NCBI RefSeq assembly: GCF_900103455.1
Contig: NZ_FNHI01000001.1
Span: forward strand, 186,001-250,000
DNA from: Streptomyces wuyuanensis
GTDB taxonomy: Bacteria > Actinomycetota > Actinomycetes > Streptomycetales > Streptomycetaceae
Length of the DNA: 64,000 nucleotides
Direction: 5' to 3'
The notes under the pieces were generated by a model, which made no database searches, had not been told where the DNA came from, and saw only the letters and a program-made list of their open reading frames with translations. Of the stretch, positions 3,378-36,772 are shown piece by piece; position 1 is the first letter of the stretch; each line of letters starts with the position of its first letter. The translations under genes were made by a program, and so were the position numbers.

Positions 3378-4232
3378 TCAGCGCGAGGTGATCCAGGTGT
3401 GGATGCGCGCCGCGAGGTCGGCGCCGGAGCGGGCCCAGCGGATGTGGCCCGGGGCGGGGCCTTCCGCGGGGGCGTAGTGCCAGCGGTCGACCGAGGCTCC
3501 CGGCAGTTTGGCGCAGAGGCGGTCCACCGCCGTGACCGGTGCCAGGTCGTCTCCCTCGACGGAGATCGCCAGGACCGGGAGGCGGACCTGGGGGAGCAGG
3601 GCCTCGTAGTCGACGTCCGCGCCGGACGGCCTGAACCGGCCGGTGCGGCAGATACGGGCCCAGTCCCTCATCCGGCGGGCCGGCTGGCGCCCGCCGAAGC
3701 CGAGGCGGTGGCCCGGGAAGTAGCCCCACACCGTGCCGATCAGCGCCACGAGTTGCGTGCTGAGCAGAATGCGCACCCCGTGAATCCCCGGAAAGCCGCG
3801 GTGGTCGACGGAACCGGCCGCCACGAACAGCAGGCCGTCCACGCCCTTCGGCTCCCGCGCCGCGTAGAGCACCGACGCCTGGCCCCCGATGCTGTGCCCG
3901 AGCAGATGGAGCGGGACGGAGGGGAAGCGCTCCCGGACCGCCGCGACCATCGCCGGCCAGTCCACCGCGGCCAGATCCTGGTATCCGTCCCGGGACGACC
4001 GGCCCGCTCGGGGACGGCTCGCACCCTGGCCGCGCAGATCCGCGGCGACGACGGCGATGCCGCGTTCCGCGAGTTCCGAGCAGAACGGGTCGTAGTACGA
4101 GGCCGTCACACCGAGCGCCGGCCACAACAGGACCACGGCCAGCGGCTCCCCGGCCGGCTCCGTCACCCGGCCGACGAGCCGTGCCGTCGTGTCCTCGAGC
4201 GGTACCTCGATGAGGTCGGGGGCCTCGCTCAC
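3378..4232 (-). CDS. Alpha/beta hydrolase, last gene of the azoxy operon
   Basis: 284-residue serine hydrolase fold protein. Visible: strand-turn start 'VVLLWPALGVTASYYDPF', 'DLRGQGASRP', nucleophile elbow GHSIGG (Ser about residue 115), an acid candidate in 'SVEGDDLAPV' and a late His in 'APGHIRWA'. This is the full catalytic layout. The GTG start at 4232 overlaps the stop of the diiron gene (GTGA), so it is cotranslated with it. Substrate cannot be read from sequence; in this place it may hydrolyse a pathway thioester or ester, or act as an editing or releasing enzyme. It is the terminal gene of the 16-kb operon. Confidence 0.88.
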   Translation of the reverse strand: MSEAPDLIEVPLEDTTARLVGRVTEPAGEPLAVVLLWPALGVTASYYDPFCSELAERGIAVVAADLRGQGASRPRAGRSSRDGYQDLAAVDWPAMVAAVRERFPSVPLHLLGHSIGGQASVLYAAREPKGVDGLLFVAAGSVDHRGFPGIHGVRILLSTQLVALIGTVWGYFPGHRLGFGGRQPARRMRDWARICRTGRFRPSGADVDYEALLPQVRLPVLAISVEGDDLAPVTAVDRLCAKLPGASVDRWHYAPAEGPAPGHIRWARSGADLAARIHTWITSR

Positions 4233-5191
4233 CGCTGCCCCCCGCCCAGGAGCATGTACGCGAGCCGCTGCTCCTGGGTCTCCCGTGACCATCGTTCCGC
4301 CGCCTCCATACGCTCCTCGATCCCCGTGTCGACCAGGCGCCGGCCGGGCCAGATCTCGTAGTCGCCGACCAGATGACCGTGCTCCGACAGGCCCTGCTGG
4401 AAGAGCGACTCCCGCCGGAACAGCAATTCCACCATGGGAAGCTCCTCCCACAGCCGGCGTCCCTCCTCGATGATCTCCTGCAACCGGGCCCGCTCGTGCG
4501 GATGTTCCGACAGATACCGGCGTACGACGGCGCTGCCGACCGCAAGGTGCCGGATCTCGTCCATGTTGGCGCCGCGCTCGACCAGCGCGGCGGCGGGGTC
4601 GAGCGGCCGCCACTTGCGTTCGCTGAGCTCGGCGGCCGGTGCGAGGACACCCTCCACCAGCACGGTCAGCACCAGGACGCCTCCGTAGAAGTCACCGCTG
4701 TCCCGGAGGACGCGCAGGCCGAACTCCTCCAGCGGGTCCAGGACGGCGGCCGACGCCGCACCCGCCGTCTTCTCGACCGTGGCCGCGAGTTCCGACGCCG
4801 GTACGCCGACCCGCAGCAAGTGGTCCCGGAAGGCCCGGGCATGGCGCGCCTCGTCGATGAGCTGGGTGGAGAAGAACTCCAGGCAGTCGCCGTCCGGGGC
4901 GTGGAACACGAGGAAGGACAGGGCGCGGGTGGCCTTCTCCTCGGCGATGTGCCGGAAGCAGAACTCGTCCAGCAGGGCGTCCCGCAAGGGGCCGGGAGCC
5001 GTGACCGCCGGTGTCGGGGCGGGGTCCGGGACGCTGCCGTCGGACAGGCGGCGCAGCATCCCGCCCGCCACGTGCTCCAGCCAGTAGGGCAGATTGCACT
5101 GCTGCGGCGTCAATTCCAGTGAGCGGGCGCCTTCGAGGACACCGGGGGCGTTGTCCCAGTCGGCTTCCGCGGGGATCGGGGCGGTCGTCAT
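4229..5191 (-). CDS. Ferritin-like non-heme diiron oxidase (VlmB-like candidate)
   Basis: 320-residue, mostly helical protein with two helix pairs carrying iron ligands: 'FRHIAEEKATRA' (Glu) then 'LIDEARHARAF' (ExxH), and 'LTVLVEGVLAP' (Glu) then 'GANMDEIRHLAVG' (ExxH). This is the ligand set of the ferritin/R2-like diiron oxidases. In valanimycin biosynthesis a diiron enzyme (VlmB) oxidises an N-N hydrazine intermediate to the azoxy group by four electrons; the neighbours here (DUF2156 transferase and small membrane protein) match the VlmA and VlmO partners, so I infer the same job. ATG at 5191 has GGAGACGACC in front. An alternative would be an AurF-like N-oxygenase. Confidence 0.85.
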   Translation of the reverse strand: MTTAPIPAEADWDNAPGVLEGARSLELTPQQCNLPYWLEHVAGGMLRRLSDGSVPDPAPTPAVTAPGPLRDALLDEFCFRHIAEEKATRALSFLVFHAPDGDCLEFFSTQLIDEARHARAFRDHLLRVGVPASELAATVEKTAGAASAAVLDPLEEFGLRVLRDSGDFYGGVLVLTVLVEGVLAPAAELSERKWRPLDPAAALVERGANMDEIRHLAVGSAVVRRYLSEHPHERARLQEIIEEGRRLWEELPMVELLFRRESLFQQGLSEHGHLVGDYEIWPGRRLVDTGIEERMEAAERWSRETQEQRLAYMLLGGGQR

Positions 5192-5244
5192 GGTCGTCTC
5201 CGTTCGTGGGTGGGGAATGGCGGGGAGCGGCCGGCGCGGTCCGG

Positions 5245-6246
5245 TCAGACGGCGCCGGTGACGCGCAGCAGGTTCCAGACGGCCGGAAGCCGCGCGCCGC
5301 CCTGGAAGGCGGCGTACTCGGGCTCGACCACGTGCGGCGCCCACTTCCGCTTGAACGCCTCCTGGCTGCGCGCCGGGTAGACGACGCGGCCGTGCTCGCC
5401 GAGCTGACCGACGATGCGGCTCAGCGTCCTCGACGAGCAGTCCGGCTCGTGGGCCGGGTCCAGACCGGCGAAGGGCGTGAAACCGAGGTGGAGCCAGCCC
5501 GCGCCCTCCTCCTGGAAGCGCTGGAGGGCGGTGAGGTTGACCAGTTCGATGGTGCCGACCGGAGCGGCCGTCGACCTGCGGGTGAGGTCGTACAGCATTC
5601 CCGGTCTGCTGCCCCAGACCGGCGAGTAGGTGATGTACGCGACGGTGCGGTCCTCGTGCCGGGCGAGGAACGTGCGCCTCAGCGGTGCACCGGGCCCTCC
5701 GCGCTCGCCGACGAGGAAGGTCAGCTCCTTCACATGACGGCCCTTGGACCGCAGCCATTCGGCGTCGATGGCGTCGAGTTCCGCGCGGCCGCGTACGTCG
5801 TCCCCGGTCACCTCGGTGACCCGAACGCCCTCGCGCCGGGCGCGGGAGACGTTCTGCCGGATCTTGGCGAGGGCCTTGCCGCCGAGGGTGAACCGCCGCA
5901 GGTCGACGCTGTACGAGCTGCCGATCTGGTTGACGGCGAAGCCGCGCGCCGCGTAAGGGCCGATGTCGTCGCGGCGGAGCTGCACTGCGGTGAGCCGCCG
6001 GCGCCCCGGGCCCGCGGCCAGCCCGCCGAGGAACTCGTCGAGCAGCGCGTCCCGTTCGGCCGGCGGGGCGAACGGGCCGCCGAACTGGACCGCGTGCCGG
6101 CGGCCGGTCCGGTGGGCGATCAGCCCCGACGCAACGCGCCCGAGATGGTGGGACGTGCCGTCGTTCAACGCCAGGAAGGCGCTGGGGTGGTCGGCGTGGC
6201 TGCGCAGCAGTCCGAGAGCGGCCTCCGTCCGCGATGCGGTGTTCAT
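5245..6246 (-). CDS. DUF2156 / MprF-C-terminal-like aminoacyl transferase (VlmA-like candidate)
   Basis: 333-residue soluble protein with the double-GNAT layout of the DUF2156/FemAB-like group (the catalytic half of MprF, which moves an amino acid from aminoacyl-tRNA). Visible: 'KIRQNVSRARREGVRV' basic stretch typical of these enzymes, 'LDAIDAEWLRSKG', 'YITYSPVWG', 'PGMLYDLTRRS', 'GAGWLHLGFTPFAG' and the C-terminal 'AFKRKWAPHV'. In valanimycin, VlmA transfers serine from seryl-tRNA to an alkyl-hydroxylamine. The context (amine N-hydroxylase-like gene, membrane protein, diiron enzyme) suggests the same chemistry here. No tRNA synthetase gene accompanies it in the window. ATG at 6246 overlaps the upstream stop as ATGA. 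Confidence 0.85.
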   Translation of the reverse strand: MNTASRTEAALGLLRSHADHPSAFLALNDGTSHHLGRVASGLIAHRTGRRHAVQFGGPFAPPAERDALLDEFLGGLAAGPGRRRLTAVQLRRDDIGPYAARGFAVNQIGSSYSVDLRRFTLGGKALAKIRQNVSRARREGVRVTEVTGDDVRGRAELDAIDAEWLRSKGRHVKELTFLVGERGGPGAPLRRTFLARHEDRTVAYITYSPVWGSRPGMLYDLTRRSTAAPVGTIELVNLTALQRFQEEGAGWLHLGFTPFAGLDPAHEPDCSSRTLSRIVGQLGEHGRVVYPARSQEAFKRKWAPHVVEPEYAAFQGGARLPAVWNLLRVTGAV

Positions 6247-6701
6247 CGGCGGCTTCCCGCGCCGGCGGCCACCTCGGCCGTGAAGGCGGTGAACGCCGGG
6301 TGCGGGGCGGGCTCGAAGGGGACCGAGAACGGCTTGAGGAAGTTGCCGAGGAGCCCGCGGTCGCCGCACAGATGGATGGGGACGGCCAGGAGGGCCCACT
6401 CCGGGCGCACCAGCCACGACCACAGCGCCACCACTGCGCCGGCGGTCAGCCAGCTGTGCATGGTGTTGTAGAGGACGTAGTAGACGCGGGGTGTCGCGCC
6501 GCCGCGCGCCCTGCGGTGCGCGATCGCTCCCGGGAGGTAGCCGATGAGGTCGATGTAGGCGAACATCGCGATCGCGACCGGCCAGCGCACCTCGTCGAGG
6601 TGGGCGAGGAACAGGCCGGCGCTGATGGCGAGGCCGACGCAGTACTCGGCGCGCAGCAGCCGGTACGTCACGGTGGATTCGAAGCGGTTGGCCGCGTCCA
6701 T
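6243..6701 (-). CDS. Small integral membrane protein (VlmO-like candidate for N-N bond formation)
   Basis: 152 residues with three to four predicted membrane helices ('EYCVGLAISAGLFLA', 'WPVAIAMFAYIDLIGYLP', 'WLTAGAVVALWSWLV', 'ALLAVPIHLCGDRGLL') and polar residues inside them, including Asp (YIDLIG), His and 'HLCGDRG'. It is wedged, with overlapping start and stop codons on both sides (TGATG, ATGA), between an SRPBCC gene and the DUF2156 gene. In valanimycin the membrane protein VlmO rearranges O-seryl-hydroxylamine to a hydrazine; I infer this role from size, topology and neighbours, not from a residue motif I can prove. It could instead be an accessory membrane anchor. Confidence 0.75.
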   Translation of the reverse strand: MDAANRFESTVTYRLLRAEYCVGLAISAGLFLAHLDEVRWPVAIAMFAYIDLIGYLPGAIAHRRARGGATPRVYYVLYNTMHSWLTAGAVVALWSWLVRPEWALLAVPIHLCGDRGLLGNFLKPFSVPFEPAPHPAFTAFTAEVAAGAGSRR

Positions 6702-7216
6702 CAGGCGATCCGTTCCGCCTGGACGTGCCGGACCGGCGCCACGGCTGCGCCGGCGGCCGTTGCGGGTTCCGGCGGAACGGCCGCGGCGCCGAGGAGCGAG
6801 GTGAGCACCAGGCGTATGTTCTCGCGGAGCACGCGCTCGGCCACCGGGTCGATGATGCCCGCGAGGCTGGGCAGCCCGAAGTCGAACCGCGCCGTGAACC
6901 GTACGGCGCAACCCGTGGGCCCGTCCGCCGTGACCTCCCAGCGGCCGCTGAACTCCTCGAAGTCGCCGTCGGTCTGGGTGAACGAGATCGTCAGGCCCTC
7001 GTCGTCGAAGACGTCCTCCTCGGTCCAGCCGAGGACGCCGTTGCGGAAGTTCACCTCCCAGTCGCTGCGCACCGGGCCGCCCGGTTCGCCCGGATGGACG
7101 GTGACCTCGCGCACCGTGTCCACCAGGTCCGGGTAGCGCGCGAAGTCGCGGATCCTCTCGTACGCCTCGTGCGGGCCGGTCGTCGACGACCGGTGCTCAA
7201 GTTCCACGGACCGCAT
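6701..7216 (-). CDS. SRPBCC / polyketide cyclase-like START-fold protein
   Basis: 171 residues of the START-like helix-grip fold that encloses hydrophobic ligands ('AYERIRDFARYPDLVDTVREV', 'FSGRWEVTADGPTGCAVRFTARFDF', long C-terminal helix 'PVAERVLRENIRLVLTSL'). Members bind lipids or act as cyclases and aromatases. I chose ATG 7216 (MRSVELEH) because AAGGAG lies 9 bases upstream and the fold starts there. It is one of two such proteins in the cluster (the other at 36296). A role in holding or presenting the fatty chain between enzymes fits, but no catalytic residues are evident. Confidence 0.82.
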   Translation of the reverse strand: MRSVELEHRSSTTGPHEAYERIRDFARYPDLVDTVREVTVHPGEPGGPVRSDWEVNFRNGVLGWTEEDVFDDEGLTISFTQTDGDFEEFSGRWEVTADGPTGCAVRFTARFDFGLPSLAGIIDPVAERVLRENIRLVLTSLLGAAAVPPEPATAAGAAVAPVRHVQAERIA

Positions 7217-7217
7217 C

Positions 7218-8540
7218 TCAGCTGCTCCTTGCCTCGTTCGGGCCGTCCTCGGCCGGGAAGCGCCCGGCGAGGGCACGTGCCGCTCCGTCGATGGCCGCCG
7301 CGAGCTCCTCCGTCTCGGCGTCCGTGAGGACGGCGGGCGGTGTGAGGCGTACGACGGCGTGCGCGTTCAGCGAGTGGTTGACGATCACTCCGCGGTCCAG
7401 GAGTTCCAGCAGGAACTCGCCGGCGAGACCGTCGTCCCGGAACTCCACGCCGAGCAGCAGGCCGACCCCGCGGACGTCCGCGACGAGATGCGGGCAGTGG
7501 GTCTCGAGCGGGGCACGCAGTGCGGTGAGCACCGTGTCCCCCAGCGCGCGGGCGCGCTCCACCAGGCCCTCTTCCTCGATCACGGCGATCGAGGCCTCCG
7601 CCGCAGCCATCGCGATGGGGGCCGCGGAGAAGGTGGACGTGTGGAGGAACGGGTCGCGGTCGAACGCCCGGAAGGCCCGGGCGGTGGCGATCGCGGCCGC
7701 CACCGGGACGACCCCGCCGCTCAGGCTCTTGCCGACGAGCAGGACGTCCGGAACGACGTCCTCACGCTCCGCGCCCCACCAGTGGCCGAGGCGGCCCAGA
7801 CCGGTCATCACCTCGTCGAGGACGAAGAAGGCGCCCGTGCGCGCGCACAGCGCGGCGACCTCCCGCAGATATCCCTCGGGCGGGACGACCACGCCCGCCT
7901 CGCCCTGGACCGGCTCCAGCAGCACGACCGCGTCGGAGCCGTCCGGACCGACCGCCTCCGCGAGGGAGTCCGTGTCGCCGTACGGCACATGAACGCTGTC
8001 CGGCAGAAGCGGTCGGAACGGGTCCTGGTACAGGGCCTTGCCGGTCGCCGAGAGGGCGCCGAGCGTCTTGCCGTGGTAGCCGCCGACGGCCGAGACGATC
8101 CGGCGGTGCCCCTGGCTCCGCGCGAGCTTCAGCGCCGTCTCCACGGCTTCCGCCCCGGAGCCGGTGAAGTGGACCCGTTCGAGGCCCGCCGGGGCGACCC
8201 GGCTCAGGGCCGAGGCCGCGTCGGCGGCCCTCGGCTCCAGCAGCAGCCGCGTCGACAGCGGATGTGTTCGGATCTGCCGCTCCACCGCGGCCACGACCCG
8301 GGGGTGGCAGGCGCCCGTGAGGAAGACGCCGTAGCCGCCGCAGTTCAGATAGTCGCGCCCCTGTGCGGTGCGCACCCGGGAGCCTTGGGACGAGACCTCG
8401 ACGTCGCCGCCGAACATCTCCCCCAGCTTGGCGCGGCCGCGGCTCAGATGCGCCCGGTAGCGGGCGGCGACATCGCCGAGGTGCCCGGGGGACACCGGGG
8501 CGCCGGTGGCGGGGGAGGCTGTGGTCGTTCCGGCAGTCAT
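7218..8540 (-). CDS. Class III PLP aminotransferase, probably aldehyde to alkylamine
   Basis: 440-residue fold-type I, ornithine/omega-aminotransferase-like enzyme. Visible: 'NCGGYGVFLTGACHPRVV', phosphate site 'HFTGSGAEAVETALKLAR', 'YHGKTLGALSATG', 'LEPVQGEAGVVVPP', 'FVLDEVMTGLGRLG' (Asp for the pyridine N) and PLP lysine in 'LLVGKSLSGG' (about residue 260). Class III enzymes often aminate omega-carbons or aldehydes. Directly upstream genes encode an aldehyde dehydrogenase/reductase-like protein and an N-hydroxylase-like flavoprotein, so conversion of a fatty aldehyde to a primary amine is the natural reading. It starts 6 bases after the flavoprotein gene. The actual substrate is unproved. 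Confidence 0.9.
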   Translation of the reverse strand: MTAGTTTASPATGAPVSPGHLGDVAARYRAHLSRGRAKLGEMFGGDVEVSSQGSRVRTAQGRDYLNCGGYGVFLTGACHPRVVAAVERQIRTHPLSTRLLLEPRAADAASALSRVAPAGLERVHFTGSGAEAVETALKLARSQGHRRIVSAVGGYHGKTLGALSATGKALYQDPFRPLLPDSVHVPYGDTDSLAEAVGPDGSDAVVLLEPVQGEAGVVVPPEGYLREVAALCARTGAFFVLDEVMTGLGRLGHWWGAEREDVVPDVLLVGKSLSGGVVPVAAAIATARAFRAFDRDPFLHTSTFSAAPIAMAAAEASIAVIEEEGLVERARALGDTVLTALRAPLETHCPHLVADVRGVGLLLGVEFRDDGLAGEFLLELLDRGVIVNHSLNAHAVVRLTPPAVLTDAETEELAAAIDGAARALAGRFPAEDGPNEARSS

Positions 8541-8546
8541 CCCGTG

Positions 8547-9683
8547 TCACCGCACCCGCAGCGGAGCGCCGTCGTGGTGGTCCAGCAGCGCCTGGGCGGC
8601 GCTCAGCCGCGACGGCGGGTGGAAGGCCAGCGCGCGGCTGACGGCCAGGAGCTGCCCGACCTCCGGGGAGGTGACGAATGCCAGGCCGCCGAGGAGCTCG
8701 GCGGACCGGTCCGCAAGATCGACCAGCAGGTCCTGGACGGCGTAGCGGGCGGTGAGCGCCGCCCCCAGCTCGTCGTTCCCGACCGTGCCGGAGTCGATCG
8801 CACCGGCTACGTTCTCGGTGAGCGCCGCGGCCGCCTCCATACCGATGACGAGGGCGGCCCGGTCGCCCGCGCTGCCCCGCCCGGCGCGGATGGCCCGCTC
8901 CGCAAGACCGCCGACCGCACCCGTGTAGGCCGAGGTGACCAGCAGCTCGAACCAGACGAACCCGACGGTCTGCAACGTGTCGAGTCCGGAGCCCAGTTCG
9001 ACCTGGGGGCGCAGCATCAGCTCTTCGGCCACGAGGACGTCCCGGAGGACCAGTTCGTCGCTCTCGGCGCCCGCGAGGACGGGCGTTCCCCAGAACGGAT
9101 TGCGGCTGATTCCGGGGGAGCCGGCGGGTATCAGGGCGACGCCCAGCTGGGTGGAACCGTCGTCCCCGGTGAGTGCGACGCTCGCGGTGAGCAGGTCCAT
9201 CGAACGGGAGAGGCTGCACGGCTTCTTGCTTCCGTTGACGACGTAACCGTTCTCGGCGCGCCGGGCGGTGACCGCCGACTCGAGGATGCCGGAGCCCGTC
9301 CGGCCCTCGGCGAAGCCCGAGGCGACGAGCAGCCGGTCCCGGGCGATGCCCTCGATCAGCATCCATTCGAGACCGGAGGCCCCGGCCGAGCCGACGAGCG
9401 CGACGAGACCCGCAACCGAGAAGTTGTGCATGGCGCTCGCCACGCCGAGCGAGGGGGAGAGGGCGCCGAGCGCACGGGTGATCCGCGCCGCGTCGACGGC
9501 GCTCACCCCGGAGCCGCCGTACGTCGTCGGGATGAGCAGCCCGGGTCCTCCGGCGCGACGGAACGCGTCGAGTGCCGGCCCGCCCGGGGACTCCAGGGTG
9601 GTGGGCGGTACGTCCGCCAGTTCGTCGTACAGATGGGGCAGGTGCTTCTCGCACGCCTCGCGCGCGCGGTCCATGGAGCGCAT
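8547..9683 (-). CDS. Acyl-CoA dehydrogenase-like flavoprotein, probable amine N-hydroxylase
   Basis: 378 residues with the acyl-CoA dehydrogenase fold: N-terminal helical domain ('LLIPTTYGGSGVSAVDAARI'), middle beta domain ('GFAEGRTGSGILESAVTARRAENGYVVNGSKKPCSL') and C-terminal helical bundle. It lacks the usual catalytic Glu motif of beta-oxidation enzymes as far as I can see. The same fold is used by group D flavin monooxygenases, including the isobutylamine N-hydroxylase VlmH of valanimycin, which fits the gene order here (aminotransferase next to it). Such enzymes need a flavin reductase; none is in the window. ATG at 9683 overlaps the upstream stop as TGATG. Confidence 0.86.
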   Translation of the reverse strand: MRSMDRAREACEKHLPHLYDELADVPPTTLESPGGPALDAFRRAGGPGLLIPTTYGGSGVSAVDAARITRALGALSPSLGVASAMHNFSVAGLVALVGSAGASGLEWMLIEGIARDRLLVASGFAEGRTGSGILESAVTARRAENGYVVNGSKKPCSLSRSMDLLTASVALTGDDGSTQLGVALIPAGSPGISRNPFWGTPVLAGAESDELVLRDVLVAEELMLRPQVELGSGLDTLQTVGFVWFELLVTSAYTGAVGGLAERAIRAGRGSAGDRAALVIGMEAAAALTENVAGAIDSGTVGNDELGAALTARYAVQDLLVDLADRSAELLGGLAFVTSPEVGQLLAVSRALAFHPPSRLSAAQALLDHHDGAPLRVR

Positions 9684-11338
9684 CAGTGACGCTTCCTCTC
9701 GTTCTGGTCGCCGGGAAGGGCCGCCTCGGTCCGGGCGTCGCCGAACACCGCCTGCCGGGGGAGGACGCCCCGGGCGACGCTGACTCCCTGGAGGTGCGTG
9801 GTGCGCAGCAGCGGGAAGTTGGCCTCACCGCCCGGGCCGCCGGTCAGGCCGGTGCCGCCGTGCGTCGGCAGCAGGGGCAGGAAGCCGATGTGGGAGTCGT
9901 TGACCTTCAGCAGCCCCCCGCCGCGGATCGCGGCGAGGTAGCCGGCGATGACGTCCTCGTCCTCGGCCCACAGCGAGTTGCGCAGCCCGTACTCGTTGGC
10001 GCTGGTGAACGCGGTGACGGCGTCGAGGAGTTCGGCGTCCGGGCGGTCCTCGGGCACCACGACGGGCAGCAGGGGGAAGAACGTCTCGTGCCGCACGACG
10101 TCCAGGTCGCGGGCGCCCTTCAGCCCGTCCACCCGCACCACGGTCGGTTCCAGGAACACACCGTTCATGTCGTCGGCCTCGCCGTGCACGTCCAGGCGCC
10201 GGCCTCCGCACACCAGCCTGCCGCCGCCGTCCGTGGCCTGGCGCAGTACCTCGAAGAAGCGGTCGGTGCGCAGCACCGGCGAGAGGAGGGCTTCCGGCTC
10301 GTCGGGGAGGCCGGGACGGATCGCCCTCGCCCGGTCGGCGAGCAGGCCGAGCAGCTCGTCGGCCACGGCGGGGTGCACGACGGCGCAGTTGGGGACCATG
10401 CAGATCTGCCCGGAGCCGTAGAACGCCTCCGCCAGCGCGTCCGCCGCGCGCTCCAGGTCCGCGTCGCGCCACACGACCACGATGTCGTTGCCGGCGAGCT
10501 CCAGGACCGGCTTCTTGCCCCGCGCCACGCACTCGGCGCCGAAGGCGATGCCCTTCTCGCTGTCCCCGAAGTACATGATGTCGTCGACCAGCGGGCTGTC
10601 CAGCCACTGGGCCAGTGCGGGCCCGGCCGGTGAGCAGATCGCGGAGAGGACCCCGGGGGGTGCCCCGGTCCGTTCGAGCGCCGGCACGATCAGTTCGTGC
10701 AGTGCGTGCATCACGCCGAGCGGTGCGCTGCGGGGTGCCCGGACGACGAGGGAGTTGCCGCCCGCGAGGACCCAGATGCCGAGGAGCGCGTTGGCGACCG
10801 TGGCGTTCTGCGGGGGGTTGAGGCACACGACCCCGTCGGCGACCCGGCGGAGCGTCAGCTCACGGGGCCCCAGCCGCCGGCGGTGCTCCATCTGTCCCGC
10901 GATCCACTCCCTGGTCTCGGGCCCGGTGTTCGCCAGCATCCCGGCGACCTCCCAGCGGGCGAGCATCCGGGGGTGGCCCTCGGCGACCATCACGTCGATG
11001 ATCTCGGCGCTCTTCTCACGGACGAGGTGGTGGAACTCCTCCACCACCCGCAGCCGGGTGGCCGGTGGAACCGCCGACCAGGCCCGGGCTGCCCCCGCGG
11101 CGACGTGGAGAGCCGCGTCCATGTCGTGGCCGTCGCCGACCGCCACCCGGCCGATGACGTCGTCCGTGGCGGCCTCCGGTGCGATCCGGCCCCGCTCCAG
11201 GCCCCGTTTGAGCCGGACCGAGCCCATCGTGTCCCGCAGCATCGCCGACGAGTGCACGGTGTAGACCCACTTGTCCGAGGGCCGCTCGTGGCCGTCCACG
11301 TAGGTGCCGTAGCTGCGCATTGCCGACTCCGTCCTCAT
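9683..11338 (-). CDS. Aldehyde dehydrogenase-superfamily protein, candidate acyl-thioester reductase
   Basis: 551 residues (ATG 11338, overlapping the PKS stop as ATGA; ATG 11320 with GGAG upstream is an alternative). Superfamily signs: cofactor region 'VVCLNPPQNATVANALLGIWVLAGGNSLVVRAP' and 'FGDSEKGIAFG', the Glu region 'KPVLELAGND', the nucleophile in 'YGSGQICMVPNC' (Cys about residue 312) and the C-terminal 'ETFFPLLPVVV'. It is longer than most ALDHs, with a unique N-terminus. Since the operon also holds an aminotransferase and the PKS/ACP upstream, I propose reduction of an acyl-thioester to the aldehyde that is aminated. Oxidation of an aldehyde is the alternative direction. Confidence 0.85.
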   Translation of the reverse strand: MRTESAMRSYGTYVDGHERPSDKWVYTVHSSAMLRDTMGSVRLKRGLERGRIAPEAATDDVIGRVAVGDGHDMDAALHVAAGAARAWSAVPPATRLRVVEEFHHLVREKSAEIIDVMVAEGHPRMLARWEVAGMLANTGPETREWIAGQMEHRRRLGPRELTLRRVADGVVCLNPPQNATVANALLGIWVLAGGNSLVVRAPRSAPLGVMHALHELIVPALERTGAPPGVLSAICSPAGPALAQWLDSPLVDDIMYFGDSEKGIAFGAECVARGKKPVLELAGNDIVVVWRDADLERAADALAEAFYGSGQICMVPNCAVVHPAVADELLGLLADRARAIRPGLPDEPEALLSPVLRTDRFFEVLRQATDGGGRLVCGGRRLDVHGEADDMNGVFLEPTVVRVDGLKGARDLDVVRHETFFPLLPVVVPEDRPDAELLDAVTAFTSANEYGLRNSLWAEDEDVIAGYLAAIRGGGLLKVNDSHIGFLPLLPTHGGTGLTGGPGGEANFPLLRTTHLQGVSVARGVLPRQAVFGDARTEAALPGDQNERKRH

Positions 11339-14178
11339 CCCAGGTCCCCGTCTTTGCCGGCCGGTTCGGCGATCCGCGCCAGTGCCCGGTCGAAGGTCGC
11401 GGCGAGAGCTTCGAGCCGCCCGCCGTCCTCGAACATGCTGAAGTGGTCGCCGGGCGTCTTCAGGACCTCGACCCGGCCCTCGACGTGACCGCCCCAGAGG
11501 GACGCCTTGTCGAGGCGCCGGATGCGCATGGTGTCCAGAAGCGCGCCGTCCTCGTCCTCCTCGGCGACCACCAGCACGATGTCGCCGTCGAACCGGCGGT
11601 CCGGGTAGTGGCCCTTGAGCAGATCGTGGTTGTGCCGCCAGGCCGCGACGAAGCCCTCGCGGCGCAGCAGCTCCATCTGCTCCTCGTCGGCAGCGGCGGA
11701 CGTGAGCAGCAGCGGAACGGCGCGCTCGAACTCGTCGTCGCCGATGTGGCCGCCGACGTACGCCTCCGGCGGGTGGCTGTCCAGCATCAGCAGCGTGTCG
11801 ACCTCCTCGCCCGCAGCCCGCAGCTGGAGCGCCATCTCGAACAGCACATTGCCGCCGAAGGAGTAGCCGCCCAGCCGGTACGGGCCGTGGGGCTGCTCGC
11901 GCCGGATCTGTTCGACGTAGAGCGCCGCCAGTTCACGCAGCGTGCCCGGTCGCCCGTCCTCCTCGCCGGGGTAGGACACCGCGGCGAGGGGCTCGGCGGA
12001 GCGGGAGTGGACGGCCATCCGGAAGTAGACGAAGTTGGTGCCACCGGCGGGGTGGACGAGGAACAGCGTCCGGCCCTCGCCCTGGCGGATCGGCACGACG
12101 CGCCCGATGCGGTCCCGGGCACCGCCCGGGGCCGCGCCGACGGACACGACGTAGTCGGCCAGTTCGCCCACCGTGCTCAACTGCGCGAAGACATCGAGGT
12201 CGATCGGCACGCCGAACGCGTCGCGCAGGGAGGTCGCGATCTCGACCGCGAGCATCGAGTCCCCGCCGAGGTCGTAGTAGTCGTCGTCCTCGGCGATTCC
12301 GGTCACCCCGAGGTGCTTCCCCAGCAGGGCGGTGAACTGTTCCCTGGTCACTCCCGTGCCCGTGCCCGTGCCCGTGTCCACGGACTCGTCGGCCGTGACC
12401 GCCCCACCGGTCGGCGGGGCCGCCTCGATCCAGTGGCGGTTGCGCTGGAAGGGGTAGGCCGGCAGGGCGATCTTCCGTGCCGAGCGGAAGTCCCAGGCCT
12501 CGGCCCACTCGCCGGCGGGCAGGTCGCGCCCGGCCAGCCAGCTCCGCACGGCCTGTCCGGTGACACCGGAGTCCGCGGCCGCCCGGCCGTCCGCGCGTTC
12601 GTCCAGGAACGCGTCGAGCTCCTCCAGTACCTCGTCGATGTCCGCGGCGGCGAACGCGTGCCGTACGGGCATCGGCTGCCGGCCTGCGAGCAGCGTGTAC
12701 GCGAGGTCGCGCACGGTCGGGCGGTGCCGCTCGGCCGCGAGGTGGTCCCGCAGCCGGCGCGCGACGGCCCGCAGACCGCGGTCGTCCTTCCCCGAGAGCA
12801 CGACCGGGTAGCGCACGCCGGTCGGCCCGGACTCCGCGACCTGTGGCCGGGGCGCGGCCTCCAGTACGCAGTGCGCGTTCGTACCGCCCAGGCCGAAGGA
12901 GCTCACGGCCGCGGCCCGCAGACGCAGTTGGTGAGGGCCCTCGGCGGTGGTGCGCACCTGGTAGGGGAGTGCGTCCAGACCGATGTGAGGATTGGGCGCG
13001 GTGAAGTTGATCTGCGGCGGGACGGTCTGGTGGTGCAGCACCAGCGCCGTCTTGATCAGTCCGGCCACGCCCGCGGCGGCGTCGAGATGGCCGATGTTGG
13101 CCTTGAGGCTGCCGACGGCGCAATCGGGGGCCGGTCCGCCGGCGGCGCGGTGCGCCGCGGCGAGCGCCCGCAGCTCCAGCGGGTCGCCGAGCGCGGTTCC
13201 CGTGCCGTGCGCCTCGACGTACCCGATGGAGTCCGCCGGCACGCCGGAGTCCCGCAGGGCCGCTTCGATGACGGCCTGCTGCCCTGCGGGGCCCGGGGCG
13301 GTGAAACCGATCTTGTCGGAGCCGTCGTTGTTGACGGCGCTGCCGCGGAGCACCGCGTAGACGCGGTCTCCCTCGGCGAGTGCCCTGTCCAGCGGCTTGA
13401 GCACCACGACTCCGCAGCCGTTCCCCTTCACCGTGCCGCCGGACGCGGCGTCGAAGACCCGGCAGTGCCCGTCCTGGGAGAGGATTCCGCCTTCCTGGTA
13501 CAGGTAGCCGCTGGTCTGGGGCACGGTGATGCTGACGCCGCCGACGAGGGCAGCGTCGCAGTCGCCGCGTTCCAGTGCCGTGCAGGCGAGGTGCACCGCG
13601 GTGAGCGAGCTGGAGCAGGCGGTCGCCACGCTGATGCCCGGGCCGGTCAGACCGAGCTTGTAGGCGACCCGGGTGGCGAGGAAGTCCTTGTCGTTCCCGA
13701 TCAGCACCGGGTAGTTCATCGCCTCGTCGGCGTGGTCGGCCGACCGCAGGACCTGGGAGAGCAGATACGTGCTCAGGCTCGTGGCGGCGAAGACGCCGAT
13801 CCGGCCGTCGCTCCAGTCCGGGCGGGTGCCCGCGTCCTCGAGCGCCTCCCAGGCGCAGGTCAGCAGGATTCGGTGCTGCGGGTCCATCAGGGCGGCGTCA
13901 CGTCCGGTGATGCCGAAGAACTGCTCGTCGAAGAGGTCCGCGCCGGCCATGTCGGCACCCGCGGGGACGCGGTTGGGATCGGAGATCCCCGCCTCCGGTA
14001 CGCCGGCGGCGCGCATCTCGTCGGCGGTGAACTCCCGCACGGACTCCTGGCCGTTCAGCAGGTTCTGCCAGAACTGGCCGATGTCGTCCGCGCCGGGGAA
14101 GCGGCCGGCCATGCCGACGACGGCGACGGGCGTGCCCCGGCCGGATCGCCGGGACTGCTCGGGTGCGAACTCGGTCAC
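11335..14178 (-). CDS. KS-ACP-TE polyketide synthase module without acyltransferase
   Basis: 947-residue megasynthase protein. Ketosynthase (about 15-440): TACSSS (Cys about 186), HGTGT (about 324) and NIGH (about 361), all intact. Then about 130 residues that look like KS-AT linker and the post-AT 'LPAYPFQRNRHWIE', but no AT GHSxG domain. ACP with 'YYDLGGDSMLAVEI' (Ser about 638). Thioesterase with GYSFGG (Ser about 772), Asp in 'LMLDSHPP' and late His in 'TPGDHFSMF'. It follows the NRPS gene with a GTGA overlap and AAGGAG upstream. So it would extend an NRPS-bound intermediate by one unit supplied in trans, and release it. No AT gene lies in the window; housekeeping FabD may serve. Confidence 0.92.
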   Translation of the reverse strand: MTEFAPEQSRRSGRGTPVAVVGMAGRFPGADDIGQFWQNLLNGQESVREFTADEMRAAGVPEAGISDPNRVPAGADMAGADLFDEQFFGITGRDAALMDPQHRILLTCAWEALEDAGTRPDWSDGRIGVFAATSLSTYLLSQVLRSADHADEAMNYPVLIGNDKDFLATRVAYKLGLTGPGISVATACSSSLTAVHLACTALERGDCDAALVGGVSITVPQTSGYLYQEGGILSQDGHCRVFDAASGGTVKGNGCGVVVLKPLDRALAEGDRVYAVLRGSAVNNDGSDKIGFTAPGPAGQQAVIEAALRDSGVPADSIGYVEAHGTGTALGDPLELRALAAAHRAAGGPAPDCAVGSLKANIGHLDAAAGVAGLIKTALVLHHQTVPPQINFTAPNPHIGLDALPYQVRTTAEGPHQLRLRAAAVSSFGLGGTNAHCVLEAAPRPQVAESGPTGVRYPVVLSGKDDRGLRAVARRLRDHLAAERHRPTVRDLAYTLLAGRQPMPVRHAFAAADIDEVLEELDAFLDERADGRAAADSGVTGQAVRSWLAGRDLPAGEWAEAWDFRSARKIALPAYPFQRNRHWIEAAPPTGGAVTADESVDTGTGTGTGVTREQFTALLGKHLGVTGIAEDDDYYDLGGDSMLAVEIATSLRDAFGVPIDLDVFAQLSTVGELADYVVSVGAAPGGARDRIGRVVPIRQGEGRTLFLVHPAGGTNFVYFRMAVHSRSAEPLAAVSYPGEEDGRPGTLRELAALYVEQIRREQPHGPYRLGGYSFGGNVLFEMALQLRAAGEEVDTLLMLDSHPPEAYVGGHIGDDEFERAVPLLLTSAAADEEQMELLRREGFVAAWRHNHDLLKGHYPDRRFDGDIVLVVAEEDEDGALLDTMRIRRLDKASLWGGHVEGRVEVLKTPGDHFSMFEDGGRLEALAATFDRALARIAEPAGKDGDLG

Positions 14179-17100
14179 TGGGTCGCTCCTTCCTGGGCAG
14201 CGTGGGAGCCGGCGGCACCGGGGGCCTTCCCGTCCGCTCCGAGGGTGTCGATGTGTGCGGCCAGTCTGCGCACCGTGGTGTGCGTGAACAGGGCGATCAT
14301 GTCGAGGGAAACTCCCGGGAGTTGTTCCTGGAGCCTCGTGTGCACGTCGGCCACGTGCATCGAGGAGCCTCCGATGTCGAAGAAGTTGTCGTCCTCGCCC
14401 ACGCTCACGCCGGGCAGGACGTCACTCCACACGGAGAGCACCAGGTCGGTGGTGGTGCGACCGGTCGGCGTGCGCCCGAGCGGCGCCGGTGCGGCGTCGC
14501 CGAGGGCGGGCCAGGGCAGCGCGGCGTCGTCCACCTTGCCGTTCACGGTCAGCGGCAGGGCCGTCAGCCGCACCGTCCTGGCGGGAACCATGTAGGCGGG
14601 GAGCCGTTCGCGCAGCAGCCGCAGCAGGGGCCTGTCGTCCGGCACCGCCGCCGAGTCCACGACGAAGGCGACGAGGGACGGATGCTCCGGGTCGCGGCCG
14701 TCGAGCCGGACCGCGGCTTCGCGCACGCCGTCGACGGACAGCAGCGCCGACTCGACCTCACCGAGCTCGATGCGGAAGCCGCGCAACTGGACCTGGGTGT
14801 CGATGCGGCCCAGATGCACGAGAGATCCGTCCGGCCGGGCCAGGGCGAGATCGCCGCTGCGGTACGCCGTGACTCCGTCCGCGACGACGAAGCGCTCGGA
14901 CGTCAGGTCGGGCCTGCCGAGGTAGCCGAGCGTCACACCCGGACCGGACACGACGAGTTCTCCGGGTACGCCGGGCGGGCAGTGGTGGCCCTCGCCGTCG
15001 ACGACGCTGACGGTGAGATCGGCCAGGGGCCTGCCGATCAGCGAGGACCTCTCCATGAGGGCGTCCGCGGGAGTGACCGCGTGGTGGGTGACGTGCACGG
15101 TGGTCTCGGTGATCCCGTACATGTTGACCAGCCGTGCCTGCTCGCCCATCAGCTCGTACCAGGGGCGCAGGGCGGCGTAGCGGAGGGGCTCGCCGCCGAA
15201 GACGACGTACCGCACGTCGAGTGCGGTCCGGTCGCCCGGCCGCAGCACTTTCAGCAACTGGCCGAAGGCGGAGGGGGTCTGGTTGAGCACGGTCACGCCG
15301 TACTCGGCGAGGAAGTCGCGGAACTGCTGCGGTGAACGGGCCGTGTCCGCCGGCACCACGGCCACCTGGCCGCCGTACAGCAGGGCGCCGAAGATCTCCC
15401 AGACCGAGAAGTCGAACGCGTAGGAGTGGAACAGACTCCAGACGTCGTCGGGACCGAAGTCGAAGTGCTCCTCGCAGGCCCGGAAGAGGCGGACGACGTT
15501 CCTGTGCGTGACCTGGACACCCTTGGGGCGGCCGGTCGAGCCGGAGGTGAAGATGGTGTACGCGCAGGCGTCCGGGTCCTTCACCGGCTCCGGTGCGGGA
15601 ACCGGTTCCCCGGGCACCAGCAGGGCCGAGGCGTCGAGGTGGCGCACCGCCCGGTCAGGCCAGCGCTCCTCGTCGGCGACGACGGGGAGACCGTCGGGGA
15701 AGCTCTCCAGGATCCGGCCGACACGGCTCGCGGGCGATCCCGGGTCGAGCGGCACGTACGCCTTGCCCGCCTTGAGCACACCGAGGATCACCGCGAGCAG
15801 GTCGGACCCGCGCCGCATGGCCACACCCACGTGTTCGCCCGGCACCTCGCGGCCGAGGGCGTGGGCCACCCGGTCGGCACGGGCGTCCAGTTCGGCGTAG
15901 GTGACGGACTCGTCACCGTCGCGCACGGCGACGCGCTCGGCATGGGTCCGTGCCACGTCCGAGAACCACGTCGTCAGGGACGGGAACGGGCCGTCGTCCA
16001 CGACGCGCGCGCCGGGGTTGATGCGCCGGGACAGCTCCCTCTCCGCCTCGGGGGGCATCGCGGGGATGTCGCGCAGGGGCACGTCCGCACCGGCGGCGGA
16101 CACCGTTTCCAGGACCTGCCGCATGCAGGCGAGCGGGTCGGTGCCCCACTGCTCCTCGGAGCACTCGACGTTGACGTTGAAGCTGGTACCGAAGTCCTCG
16201 ACGTTCATGACGAGGGGGTACTTGGCGTACCGGCGCGGCAGTTCGATCGACTCGATGGTGCAGCCCGGGATCCGGATCTGCAGGGGTTGCTTGTAGTAGG
16301 TGAAGGCGCTGTTGAACGCGAGCGAGCCGCCCTCGGCACCGGGGCACACCTCCCGCACCTGGGCGGCCACGTCGAAGCCCTGGTAGCGGAGCATTCCGAG
16401 CGTGGTCTCCTGCACGTCCCGGCACAGGTCGCCGAAGCTGCCGAAGTCGGACAGGTCCACCGCGAGGGGAAGGATGTTGACGAAGTATCCGGACGCCTTG
16501 CGCTGGCGGATGCCCCGGCGGTTCGCCAGGGGGAGGCCGGTGACGACCTCGCGCCGGCCGGTGACGCGGGCGTGGACGAGGAGGTACGCCCCGAGGAAGA
16601 AGGCGAAGGGGCTGACACCGATGTCCTCGGCCCTGGCGCGGATCAGGCCGCTCTCCTCCTCGGTGAGGATGAGGTGACGCTGGTGCCCCCGCAGGGCGCC
16701 GCCGGCCGAACGGCTGCCCTGGAGACGGTCGTCGGAGAACGTCGTCACTCCACCGAGCCGCTTGCGGAAGAAGTCGACGGCGGCGGACGACGCGGGTGCG
16801 GCACCGGTGACGAGCGAGCCGGGCTCGTCCAGGGCGGCCGGGGTCAGTTCGGCGTCCGGGTCGGCGTACAGGCGCTCCAGCTCGGTGACGAACATGTAGA
16901 AGGTGTAGGCGTCGCAGATCAGGTGTGAGAACAGGAGCGTGACGAACACTCCGTCCGGAGCCCGGAAGATCTCGAAGTCGTACTGGCGGGGTGCCTCGGG
17001 AGGGATGGGGCGGTCGGCCTTGGCGGCGAACCGCCGGGGTGCCTCGCGTAAGCCCTCGCCGTGGAGTTCGGTCACCGTCACCAGGTCGGCCGGATCGGCG

Positions 17101-17342
17101 ATGTCGGGGACGCGGTGGACCGCGTACACGATTCCGCCGCGCTCCTCGAATGAGGTGTTGAGCGCGCGGATTCCCGCCCCCAGCCGCCCGATGACCGTCC
17201 TCAGCCGGTCGACGTCGACCGGGCCCGTGATGTGGAACGTGCCACCCAGGTTGAACGACGGGTCTCTGGGGAACACCCGTGCGTGTGTGTAGAGCTTGAG
17301 CTGCGCCGGGGTCGCCGGCGTCACGCTCTCTTGGCTTCCCAT
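14175..17342 (-). CDS. NRPS module C-A-PCP with threonine-like specificity code
   Basis: 1055 residues. Condensation domain (about 5-440): the active motif reads 'SHLICDA' near residue 142, keeping the catalytic His and Asp but replacing the first His (Ser) and the final Gly (Ala). Adenylation domain (about 450-940): 'IFTSGSTGRPKG', 'NMYGITETT', 'YRSGDLA', 'GRIDTQVQLRGFRIELGEVE', and 'NGKVDDAALP'. Reading the pocket by hand gives D-F-W-N-V-G-M-V-H-K, one change from the threonine code DFWNIGMVHK. PCP: 'NFFDIGGSSMHVAD' (Ser about 990). I chose ATG 17342 because GGGGGAAGC precedes it; ATG 17375, overlapping the SDR stop, is possible. It should hand a threonyl-type residue to the KS-ACP-TE protein. 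Confidence 0.92.
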   Translation of the reverse strand: MGSQESVTPATPAQLKLYTHARVFPRDPSFNLGGTFHITGPVDVDRLRTVIGRLGAGIRALNTSFEERGGIVYAVHRVPDIADPADLVTVTELHGEGLREAPRRFAAKADRPIPPEAPRQYDFEIFRAPDGVFVTLLFSHLICDAYTFYMFVTELERLYADPDAELTPAALDEPGSLVTGAAPASSAAVDFFRKRLGGVTTFSDDRLQGSRSAGGALRGHQRHLILTEEESGLIRARAEDIGVSPFAFFLGAYLLVHARVTGRREVVTGLPLANRRGIRQRKASGYFVNILPLAVDLSDFGSFGDLCRDVQETTLGMLRYQGFDVAAQVREVCPGAEGGSLAFNSAFTYYKQPLQIRIPGCTIESIELPRRYAKYPLVMNVEDFGTSFNVNVECSEEQWGTDPLACMRQVLETVSAAGADVPLRDIPAMPPEAERELSRRINPGARVVDDGPFPSLTTWFSDVARTHAERVAVRDGDESVTYAELDARADRVAHALGREVPGEHVGVAMRRGSDLLAVILGVLKAGKAYVPLDPGSPASRVGRILESFPDGLPVVADEERWPDRAVRHLDASALLVPGEPVPAPEPVKDPDACAYTIFTSGSTGRPKGVQVTHRNVVRLFRACEEHFDFGPDDVWSLFHSYAFDFSVWEIFGALLYGGQVAVVPADTARSPQQFRDFLAEYGVTVLNQTPSAFGQLLKVLRPGDRTALDVRYVVFGGEPLRYAALRPWYELMGEQARLVNMYGITETTVHVTHHAVTPADALMERSSLIGRPLADLTVSVVDGEGHHCPPGVPGELVVSGPGVTLGYLGRPDLTSERFVVADGVTAYRSGDLALARPDGSLVHLGRIDTQVQLRGFRIELGEVESALLSVDGVREAAVRLDGRDPEHPSLVAFVVDSAAVPDDRPLLRLLRERLPAYMVPARTVRLTALPLTVNGKVDDAALPWPALGDAAPAPLGRTPTGRTTTDLVLSVWSDVLPGVSVGEDDNFFDIGGSSMHVADVHTRLQEQLPGVSLDMIALFTHTTVRRLAAHIDTLGADGKAPGAAGSHAAQEGATQ

Positions 17343-17371
17343 GCTTCCCCCAAAAGTGCTTTCGTGTGCCC

Positions 17372-18154
17372 TCATCGGTGCGGATGGGCGCTGATGTCCC
17401 AGGCGCCCTGGCGTGTCAGCGATCGCGGCAGGTGCCGCAGCATCCAGGCGGCGGCCTTGTAGCGAAGGCTGGGCACGCTGATGACCTTTCCCCTGTGCAG
17501 GTCACGGAGCGCGGTGCGCACCACGTCGTCGGCGTCCAGCCACAGCCAGGCCGGCGGGAACGTCGTCGGGATGCCGGCGCGCTGGTGGAACTCGGTGCGG
17601 GTGTATCCGGGGAGGACCGCGGTCATGCGGACGCCGGCCTCGCGCACCTGGCGGGACCACGCCAGGGACTCGGTGAAGGCGATCACCCACGCCTTGCTCG
17701 CCGGATAGGTGGAGCTCAGCCACGACGGCCCGACGCCGGCGACGCTGGCGACGTTGAGGATCGCGCCCCCGCGGCGGTCGGTCATGGCGGTCAGTGCCGC
17801 GTCGGTGAGGCGCAGCACGGCCCTTACGTTGAGGTCGAGGAGTCGTTCTTCCGAGGCGGTGCCGTTCGTGAGGAAGGGGCGTTCGTGTCCGATGCCCGCG
17901 TTGTTGACGAGCAGATCCACTCGCGGCCCGGAGACGAGGCGGGCGCGGACCGCGTCGCAGCCCTCGTCGGTGGAGAGGTCGGCCGCGAGCACCTCGGCCG
18001 CCGTGCCGTGGGCGTCCCGCAGCTCTTCGGCCGTCTTCGTGAGCGCGGGTTCGGAACGGGCGACCAGGACCAGGCCGTATCCGTCCCGGGCGAGAGCCCG
18101 GGCGAAGGCGCGGCCGAGCCCGGCGGTCGCTCCGGTGATGAGTGCGGTGGGCAT
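17372..18154 (-). CDS. Short-chain dehydrogenase/reductase
   Basis: 260-residue classical SDR: nucleotide motif 'LITGATAGLGRAFA', 'NNAGIGHERP', catalytic Ser in 'ILNVASVAGVG' and Tyr/Lys in 'STYPASKAWV'. C-terminal 'RYKAAAWMLRHLPRSL' is as in SDRs of the DltE/YqjQ group. Start ATG 18154 is preferred (AAGGAACCC directly upstream, and the Rossmann fold begins at once); a GTG at 18187 overlapping the upstream stop lacks an SD. It sits just after the oxoamine synthase gene, so reduction of the aminoketone made by that enzyme to an amino alcohol is the obvious proposal. Confidence 0.9.
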   Translation of the reverse strand: MPTALITGATAGLGRAFARALARDGYGLVLVARSEPALTKTAEELRDAHGTAAEVLAADLSTDEGCDAVRARLVSGPRVDLLVNNAGIGHERPFLTNGTASEERLLDLNVRAVLRLTDAALTAMTDRRGGAILNVASVAGVGPSWLSSTYPASKAWVIAFTESLAWSRQVREAGVRMTAVLPGYTRTEFHQRAGIPTTFPPAWLWLDADDVVRTALRDLHRGKVISVPSLRYKAAAWMLRHLPRSLTRQGAWDISAHPHR

Positions 18155-18183
18155 GGGTTCCTTGCCTGTCGAACGGCCGGTGG

Positions 18184-19371: not shown

Positions 19372-19538
19372 GGTTCGCCTTTCGACAGGTCTCATCAAGG
19401 CATGGCGGTACGGAAATCTTCACCGGCGATTTCTATTTCCGAGCAGCCTTGAGCCGGCAATCGGCCCGCAGGGCACACACGGCACCGCATACCTGAAGAC
19501 GGTGGCGTCCGGTGAGAAAGAGAAGAAAGTAAGAGTGC

Positions 19539-22020: not shown

Positions 22021-22122
22021 GCGCCGGCCCACGCGCCCCGTTCCACGGGAGCCGCAAGACCTTCGCACCTTTTCCGGACGGCCCTGCGGGCCGTCCACCA
22101 CCCAACAGAGAAAGGCAGTCTC

Positions 22123-22371: not shown

Positions 22372-22384
22372 GCGGCACTCCGTG

Positions 22385-22413
22385 GCGGAGCCCCCGGTCC
22401 TTCGGGGGTCCGC
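22385..22413. terminator. Hairpin between convergent ACP and hydrolase genes
   Basis: GCGGA-G-CCCCCG (22385-22396) pairs with CGGGGGTCCGC (22403-22413), eleven pairs with one bulged base. It sits 14 bases after the ACP stop and 34 bases past the end of the leftward hydrolase gene, so it can stop both transcripts. Confidence 0.75.
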
Positions 22414-22446
22414 CGCGGAGGGGCTGGGGCAGCGCCCCGGATCGGC

Positions 22447-23256: not shown

Positions 23257-23311
23257 CCAAGTCCCCTTCCCGAAAGCTGTCGTGAGGGCTCGTCAAATAG
23301 TCTCGAATTCC

Positions 23312-23359: not shown

Positions 23360-23400
23360 CAGAGCGGTCCGCGTGCGAGCTCACTCACGGGGGAAGTTCT

Positions 23401-28544: not shown

Positions 28545-28563
28545 CACGCATTCGGGAGCCCCC

Positions 28564-36295: not shown

Positions 36296-36772
36296 ATGCA
36301 GCGGCTGTGGGAAGTGGAAGAAAGCATTCACATCAAAGCCGCGGCGGACACGCTCTACGACTCCGTTGCGGACGTCAGGGCGATGGGCAGATGGAGCCCG
36401 GAGTGCCGGAGGGTCTGGCTGCCCCGGCCGCCGGCCCGCCGGGGCAGCGGCTTCGTCGGCTTCAACCGCAAGGGGCCGTGGGTGTGGTTCACCTGGTGCC
36501 GTGTCGTGCGTGCCGAGCGGCCCCACGCCTTCACCTTCCGGGTCAGCACCTTCGGACTGCCGGTCGCCGAGTGGGGCTACCGCTTCACCCCCACCGACGA
36601 CGGCACCCGGGTCACCGAGCACTGGACCGACCTGCGCACCGGACGCGGGGCCCGGCTCACCGAACTGCTCGGGCTGGTGTTCACGGGCACCCGTCCGCGC
36701 CTGCGCGCCGCACGCAACCGGGCCGGCATGCGCACCACACTCCACCGACTGAAGCAGGCCGCCGAAGGCTGA
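36296..36772 (+). CDS. SRPBCC/START-fold protein (second in cluster)
   Basis: 158 residues, helix-grip fold: 'SIHIKAAADTLYDSVADVRAMGRWSPECRRVWLP' start typical of polyketide cyclase/dehydrase-like SRPBCC proteins, 'FVGFNRKGPWVWFTWCRV' and C-terminal helix. GGAGGAG before ATG. First gene of an operon with the desaturase and methyl-cycle genes. Ligand unknown; with the related protein at 6701 it may carry a lipid-like intermediate. Confidence 0.85.
   Translation: MQRLWEVEESIHIKAAADTLYDSVADVRAMGRWSPECRRVWLPRPPARRGSGFVGFNRKGPWVWFTWCRVVRAERPHAFTFRVSTFGLPVAEWGYRFTPTDDGTRVTEHWTDLRTGRGARLTELLGLVFTGTRPRLRAARNRAGMRTTLHRLKQAAEG

Follow-up and report, generated by a model that had tools for sequence, protein, structure and literature searches.

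In the pathway proposed for the azodyrecins, the dehydrogenase Ady2 yields an aldehyde, the transaminase Ady4 converts it to an amine and Ady3 produces the hydroxylamine; Ady6, Ady7 and Ady8 are the counterparts of VlmO, VlmA and VlmB, and the ady cluster has no tRNA synthetase (PMC9379638). Four residues of VlmO are essential: D51, H82, H110 and D114 (review PMC11705231). In a published survey, VlmA/VlmH pairs occurred in about 5.7% of actinobacterial genomes. Here we describe a related twelve-gene putative operon on the minus strand of a 64,000-nucleotide stretch of Streptomyces wuyuanensis (contig NZ_FNHI01000001.1, positions 186,001 to 250,000), which we call the window. We consider it very probable that the operon holds an aliphatic azoxy cluster of the azodyrecin, elaiomycin and valanimycin kind, a judgement that covers the azoxy cascade and excludes the extension in front of it. 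The azoxy module itself is of a known and frequent kind; the whole operon is new as far as the accessible literature shows.

The predicted azoxy cascade and its amine supply

Sequence comparison supports a full VlmH, VlmA, VlmO and VlmB cascade in the window, as found in aliphatic azoxy clusters. The small membrane protein, numbered from its ATG, carries all four essential residues at exactly the VlmO positions; across 127 homologues D51, H82 and H110 never vary, and 126 of them keep D114. A Foldseek search with its model (predicted local distance difference test score, pLDDT, 73) gave no match at E<2. The diiron protein has a sole strong match in the PDB, entry 6d9f, 'Putative VlmB homolog', which aligns nearly end to end, and its candidate Glu, Asp and His ligands are near-invariant among 99 homologues. 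As the valanimycin-type reference we chose a locus by gene context (L057). It encodes a pyridoxal phosphate (PLP) decarboxylase, VlmA-, VlmH-, VlmO-, flavin reductase- and VlmB-like proteins, an amino acid permease and a seryl-tRNA synthetase, which is the valanimycin inventory. The window proteins match those of L057 over nearly their full length (VlmA type 42%, VlmB 50%, VlmH 49%, VlmO 56% identity). Across the reference loci the range is 42-44% for the VlmA-like protein and 48-49%, full length, for the VlmH-like protein; for the VlmB-like protein it is 50-54%, measured against the valanimycin-type locus and S. atratus. A preliminary description of this DNA had placed all four Vlm types here and had listed the genes in order of transcription, and both points stand; all of these genes lie on the minus strand. 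It had also counted eight overlapping genes at 4229-11338; the gene content is right, but the hydrolase gene (3378-4232) lies almost wholly outside that interval and not all of the genes overlap.

Among 393 genomes of the genus, 83 encode a VlmO homologue, and a scan of species genomes gave 284 encoding stretches, of which 80 were kept. The genus and species samples overlap and include related, non-independent strains, and an absence applies only to the stretch read. Dozens of genomes share the window's gene set, far more than chance could explain.

The genes for amine supply support placing the window in the azodyrecin-type long-chain branch, in which an acyl reductase and a class III transaminase would provide the alkylamine. 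S. atratus, the species named for elaiomycins (PMC11705231), has the same set of aldehyde dehydrogenase (ALDH), flavoprotein, aminotransferase, VlmO, VlmA and VlmB types (locus L161), 44-61% identical to the window's; the ALDH is 57% and the aminotransferase 61% identical. Among loci with an aminotransferase, 18 have no ALDH, and 12 of these carry an unrelated NAD_binding_4 fatty-acyl reductase instead (e.g. L064:12517-13638), a gene found in none of the 56 loci with an ALDH. The two reductases thus replace each other and never occur together, which lends support to an acyl-reductase role for the ALDH.

An SRPBCC gene adjoins vlmO in most long-chain loci. In the genus sample it was present in 43 of 43 loci with an aminotransferase and in none of four without. 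In the species sample the two genes were both present in 64 loci, discordant in one and three, and both absent from 12. Two further genus loci (L062 and L070), where vlmO was missed by the gene caller, have the SRPBCC gene and no recognised aminotransferase. The AlphaFold model of the window protein (pLDDT 88) has a Bet v1/START fold, with TTHA0849 and polyketide aromatase/cyclases as its nearest structures. We found no function for this protein in the literature consulted. Its absence from short-chain valanimycin-type loci suggests that it may carry a greasy long-chain intermediate.

Two partners of the cascade would have to come from the host. The preliminary description had reported neither a seryl-tRNA synthetase nor a flavin reductase in the window, and this agrees with the whole genome: the synthetase is single-copy and on another contig, and the azoxy contig has no flavin reductase, with four distant ones (29-37% identity) elsewhere. 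Nor was a flavin reductase found in the stretch read around the operon in other members of the subtype described below, so its absence is not a local loss. Among 85 loci with VlmO, VlmA and VlmH types, 30 have none in the stretch read, and the partner VlmR is therefore usual and not universal. Domain searches found no amino acid decarboxylase in the operon. With no seryl-tRNA synthetase of its own and no such decarboxylase, the window is not a valanimycin cluster proper.

An NRPS-PKS-synthase extension and the subtype it marks

The operon spans 3378-19398 and is transcribed from the 19398 side (Table 1). Overlaps of four bases join the genes for the alpha-oxoamine synthase, the short-chain reductase, the non-ribosomal peptide synthetase (NRPS), the ketosynthase-acyl carrier protein-thioesterase (KS-ACP-TE) protein and the ALDH, and most neighbours in the operon overlap by 1-4 bases, including the hydrolase and diiron genes (4 bases). 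At the three other junctions the genes are separated, twice by short gaps (1 and 6 bases) and, where the DUF2156 gene meets the diiron gene, by about 53 bases. An open reading frame (ORF) left of the operon appears to encode a KdpA-type potassium transporter, which probably marks the end of the cluster on that side.

Table 1. Genes of the putative operon, in order of transcription from the synthase to the hydrolase, and of the separate SRPBCC/desaturase pair
Feature (predicted role)	Coordinates	Strand	Basis
Alpha-oxoamine synthase, serine palmitoyltransferase (SPT)/BioF-like; first gene	18184..19398	-	NCBIfam SPT model 405 bits, cut-off 640 not reached
Short-chain reductase	17372..18187	-	Pfam; 73-76% copies in subtype
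NRPS, condensation-adenylation-thiolation (C-A-T); adenylation code DFWNVGMVHK (threonine)	14175..17375	-	Pfam; code
KS-ACP-TE protein without acyltransferase	11335..14178	-	Pfam; active-site residues
ALDH-family acyl reductase, Ady2-like (putative acyl to aldehyde)	9683..11338	-	PF00171
VlmH-like flavin-dependent N-hydroxylase (putative), acyl-CoA-dehydrogenase fold	8547..9683	-	49% to VlmH of L057
Class III aminotransferase (putative fatty aldehyde to alkylamine)	7218..8540	-	PF00202 E=1e-83; 61% to S. atratus counterpart
SRPBCC (Bet v1/START-fold) protein	6701..7216	-	Pfam; AlphaFold model
VlmO-like membrane hydrazine synthase (putative)	6243..6701	-	D51, H82, H110, D114
VlmA-like aminoacyl-tRNA:hydroxylamine transferase (putative), LPG_synthase_C/DUF2156	5245..6246	-	PF09924 E=6e-51
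VlmB-like ferritin-type diiron protein (putative hydrazine to azo/azoxy)	4229..5191	-	PDB 6d9f E=1.7e-97
Alpha/beta hydrolase (Hydrolase_4); last gene	3378..4232	-	Pfam; 66-81% identical copy, same place in subtype
Second SRPBCC protein, beside desaturase	36296..36772	+	Pfam; 64-66% copies divergent to synthase gene in relatives
Fatty acid desaturase, Ady9-like	36813..37865	+	PF00487; 70-73% in subtype, 52% in S. atratus

The NRPS and KS-ACP-TE genes stand directly ahead of the ALDH gene, in the same order, in the window and in eight other Streptomyces: S. griseoflavus (VlmO 91% identical), S. mexicanus, S. cacaoi, S. roseolilacinus, S. huasconensis, S. roseicoloratus, S. morookaense and a further genome, G290. 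A tree built from concatenated VlmO, VlmH and VlmA protein sequences included eight subtype tips, and these group as one clade with support 1.0. The adenylation code, anchored on the core motifs, is DFWNVGMVHK in eight of the nine members and DFWNIGMVHK in the ninth. DFWNIGMVHK is the textbook code for threonine. In eight members the Cys-His-His of the KS, the Ser of the ACP and the GxSxG of the TE are conserved, and Pfam found no acyltransferase (AT) domain in the KS-ACP-TE protein.

Six subtype genomes have alpha-oxoamine synthase copies at 71-77% identity. Where the neighbourhood could be read, the far side of the synthase holds the second SRPBCC gene, the desaturase, a TetR regulator and alpha/beta hydrolases. 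In two subtype genomes the desaturase gene is too short, either through gene calling or possibly because it is broken. In the window itself, about 17 kb with a fatty acid synthase (FAS)-like set and MFS, TetR and SARP genes part the synthase from the SRPBCC/desaturase pair.

We compared these features with the described clusters, relying for ady (LC712332) on its published description. The azodyrecin clusters (ady/azd, from Streptomyces sp. RM72, A1C6 and S. mirabilis P8-A2) resemble the window in having an ALDH-type reductase, a VlmH-like protein, a transaminase, VlmO, VlmA and VlmB, a desaturase and no tRNA synthetase of their own (PMC9379638). However, their description mentions no NRPS, AT-less KS or alpha-oxoamine synthase, all three of which the window has, while the flavin reductase Ady10 and the methyltransferase Ady1 of ady were not found in the window operon. 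The valanimycin cluster (vlm) shares the VlmA, VlmB, VlmH and VlmO types, at 42-56% identity to L057, but vlm-type loci have a PLP decarboxylase, a flavin reductase and a seryl-tRNA synthetase where the window has an ALDH, an aminotransferase and an SRPBCC protein. The elaiomycin and KA57-A clusters are like the window in their VlmO/VlmB pair and alkyl chain route, and the S. atratus locus also has a desaturase. The type I polyketide synthases (PKS) of other azoxy loci are chain makers of the KS-AT-dehydratase type, with ketoreductase and ACP where complete, in contrast to the KS-ACP-TE of the window, which has no AT or reducing domains. The preliminary description had called the locus more than a copy of valanimycin. 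The NRPS/PKS half of the operon bears this out; the long-chain amine supply, which it had also cited, is not new, being part of the azodyrecin pathway (PMC9379638).

An azoxy operon joined to a threonine NRPS, an AT-less KS-ACP-TE, an alpha-oxoamine synthase and a reductase was not found described in the accessible literature. An azoxy compound with threonine or an NRPS likewise had no literature match, which, with partial coverage, is weak evidence of novelty.

Proposed pathway and alternative readings

What is in hand is genes, homology, catalytic residues, conservation, synteny and a clade, and from these we infer every reaction, the reaction order and the tRNA used. The ALDH-family enzyme would reduce a fatty acyl thioester to the aldehyde, which the aminotransferase would convert to the alkylamine. 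The VlmH-like flavoprotein, with reduced flavin from a host reductase, would make the N-alkylhydroxylamine, and the VlmA-like enzyme would load an amino acid from a host aminoacyl-tRNA onto the hydroxylamine oxygen. Rearrangement of this O-aminoacyl ester by the VlmO-like membrane enzyme would give the N-N-bonded hydrazine, to be oxidised by the VlmB-like diiron enzyme via the azo to the azoxy compound. A 1,2 double bond, beside the azoxy group, may come from the desaturase, and the SRPBCC protein may hold the greasy intermediate along the way. In the extension, threonine would be loaded on the NRPS and N-acylated by the C domain; the KS would extend the threonine unit once, with malonate loaded in trans, and the TE would release the product. 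The synthase/reductase pair could join an acyl thioester to an amino acid by forming a C-C bond and then reduce the ketone, to give an amino alcohol.

The same operon thus probably builds or attaches a threonine-plus-malonate unit in this subtype. More tentatively, and with slightly less than even confidence, we propose that the product is a hybrid azoxy-peptide-polyketide in which an azoxy (probably alkenyl-azoxy) unit is combined with the threonine-malonate unit and with an amino-alcohol part made via the synthase and reductase. Several points weigh against the pathway as a whole. The azoxy end product is a prediction from genes, the VlmA-like protein belongs to a broad family (PF09924) whose sequences do not reveal which tRNA is used, and the window differs from most loci of the genus, 36 of 47 of which have a flavin reductase within about 20 kb. 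In addition, synthase and reductase genes are also found paired at a site with no VlmO neighbour and may form a separable unit.

That last point bears on the alternative in which the azoxy cascade is read correctly but the NRPS, KS-ACP-TE, synthase and reductase serve a different, unrelated product and have only the promoter in common with it. In genome G303 (contig 16, L216:11213-13301) a synthase-reductase pair with 64-68% identity to that of the window lies beside an ACP-KAS (ketoacyl-ACP synthase) pair; it stands away from the VlmO genes, which is why the pair may be separable. Two products would also suit the lack, among the subtype operons, of any conserved enzyme that could adenylate or otherwise activate an azoxy acid. 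Yet four-base overlaps run through the upper operon, and the NRPS and KS-TE genes directly precede the azoxy genes, in the same order, in nine genomes of a single clade. We regard a second product as unlikely.

The pathway could instead stop at a hydrazine, hydrazone or azo compound, the diiron protein having another role. VlmB is missing from 21 of the 85 loci (e.g. the L064:16164-17486 and L042:13661-16288 regions), and these loci occupy at least four places in the tree. They carry a DAO-family FAD oxidoreductase (14 of 21, against none of the 64 loci with VlmB) or a cytochrome P450 (10 of 21, again against none of 64). A whole-genome check of 17 such genomes, two of Paraburkholderia included, found 16 without any VlmB match. 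These loci look like a second fate of the VlmO hydrazine, one that we did not find described in the literature. The window, however, does have VlmB, with 50-54% identity to the valanimycin-type and S. atratus proteins and the same near-invariant Glu, Asp and His residues, which makes an end point short of the azoxy group very improbable here.

That the cluster modifies fatty acids or lipids, with the DUF2156 protein performing lipid aminoacylation of the MprF/lysylphosphatidylglycerol synthase type and the flavoprotein an ordinary acyl-CoA dehydrogenase, would fit the lipid and acyl-CoA enzymes that make up the matched Pfam, NCBIfam and PDB families, but it is scarcely credible: the DUF2156 protein has no flippase part, the flavoprotein is nearest to the VlmH type (49%, against 29%, E=8e-9, for its best paralogue in the same genome), and in the loci read both proteins accompany VlmO and, in most cases, VlmB. 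Other matches to the VlmA-like protein in its own genome reach just 27-28%. We rejected both assignments, MprF and ordinary dehydrogenase, since similarity to the Vlm types is far above that to own-genome paralogues; closer similarity to other families, which the preliminary description had named as grounds for refutation, was looked for and not seen. The flavoprotein has an FHPPSR-type C-terminal motif common to most of 113 homologues from such loci, including the VlmH of L057. Acyl-CoA dehydrogenases of the medium-chain type carry their catalytic glutamate, in a YEGT motif, in this C-terminal region. This motif is not apparent in the window flavoprotein.

Jietacin was dropped as a candidate product; as far as the accessible part of the source describes it, a jietacin derivative has an in-chain ketone and a vinyl-azoxy end and would need no alpha-oxoamine synthase (PMC9862604).

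Neighbouring genes, wider distribution and significance

Right of the operon, a compact set at 20034-29751 (+) comprises FabG-like, FabI/InhA-like, MaoC, ACP, AMP-ligase and KAS II genes, a SET-domain ORF (26366-26830), and thiamine pyrophosphate (TPP) decarboxylase-like and Glu/Leu dehydrogenase-like genes. This FAS-like set was not found near the azoxy operon in relatives. Its genes (20.0-29.8 kb) were considered as makers of the azoxy chain and dropped, as they do not surround the subtype operon there. An MFS exporter (30791-32449, -) and a large SARP-type regulator with BTAD, AAA and TPR parts (32453-35788, -) are the possible exporter and regulator of the cluster. At 37937-41125 (+), genes for S-adenosylmethionine synthetase, methylenetetrahydrofolate reductase and a PfkB-family kinase stand in a row and are likely a methyl-donor supply set; the domain search recognised no methyltransferase gene in the operon.

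The kept stretches of the species scan come mainly from Streptomyces, with others in Salinispora, Nocardia, Crossiella, Microbispora, Parafrankia and two Paraburkholderia. In the latter, P. saeva and P. gardini (L104 and L116), the proteins are VlmO-like (58-64%), VlmA-like (44-45%) and VlmH-like (36%), and the genomes have no VlmB match. These loci place N-N bond genes outside the Actinobacteria.

Azoxy natural products are few and biologically active, the azodyrecins being cytotoxic and others antifungal or antibacterial, and for most of the clusters predicted to make them the product is not known. The operon described here defines a single coherent subtype, in which an additional building block, threonine, can be read from the sequence. 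The hybrid scaffold, if true, would not be among the azoxy natural products named in the literature consulted. Several subtype members are named strains that can be cultured (S. cacaoi, S. mexicanus, S. morookaense, S. griseoflavus and S. roseolilacinus), so the published hydrazine-release assay offers a direct way to look for the product.

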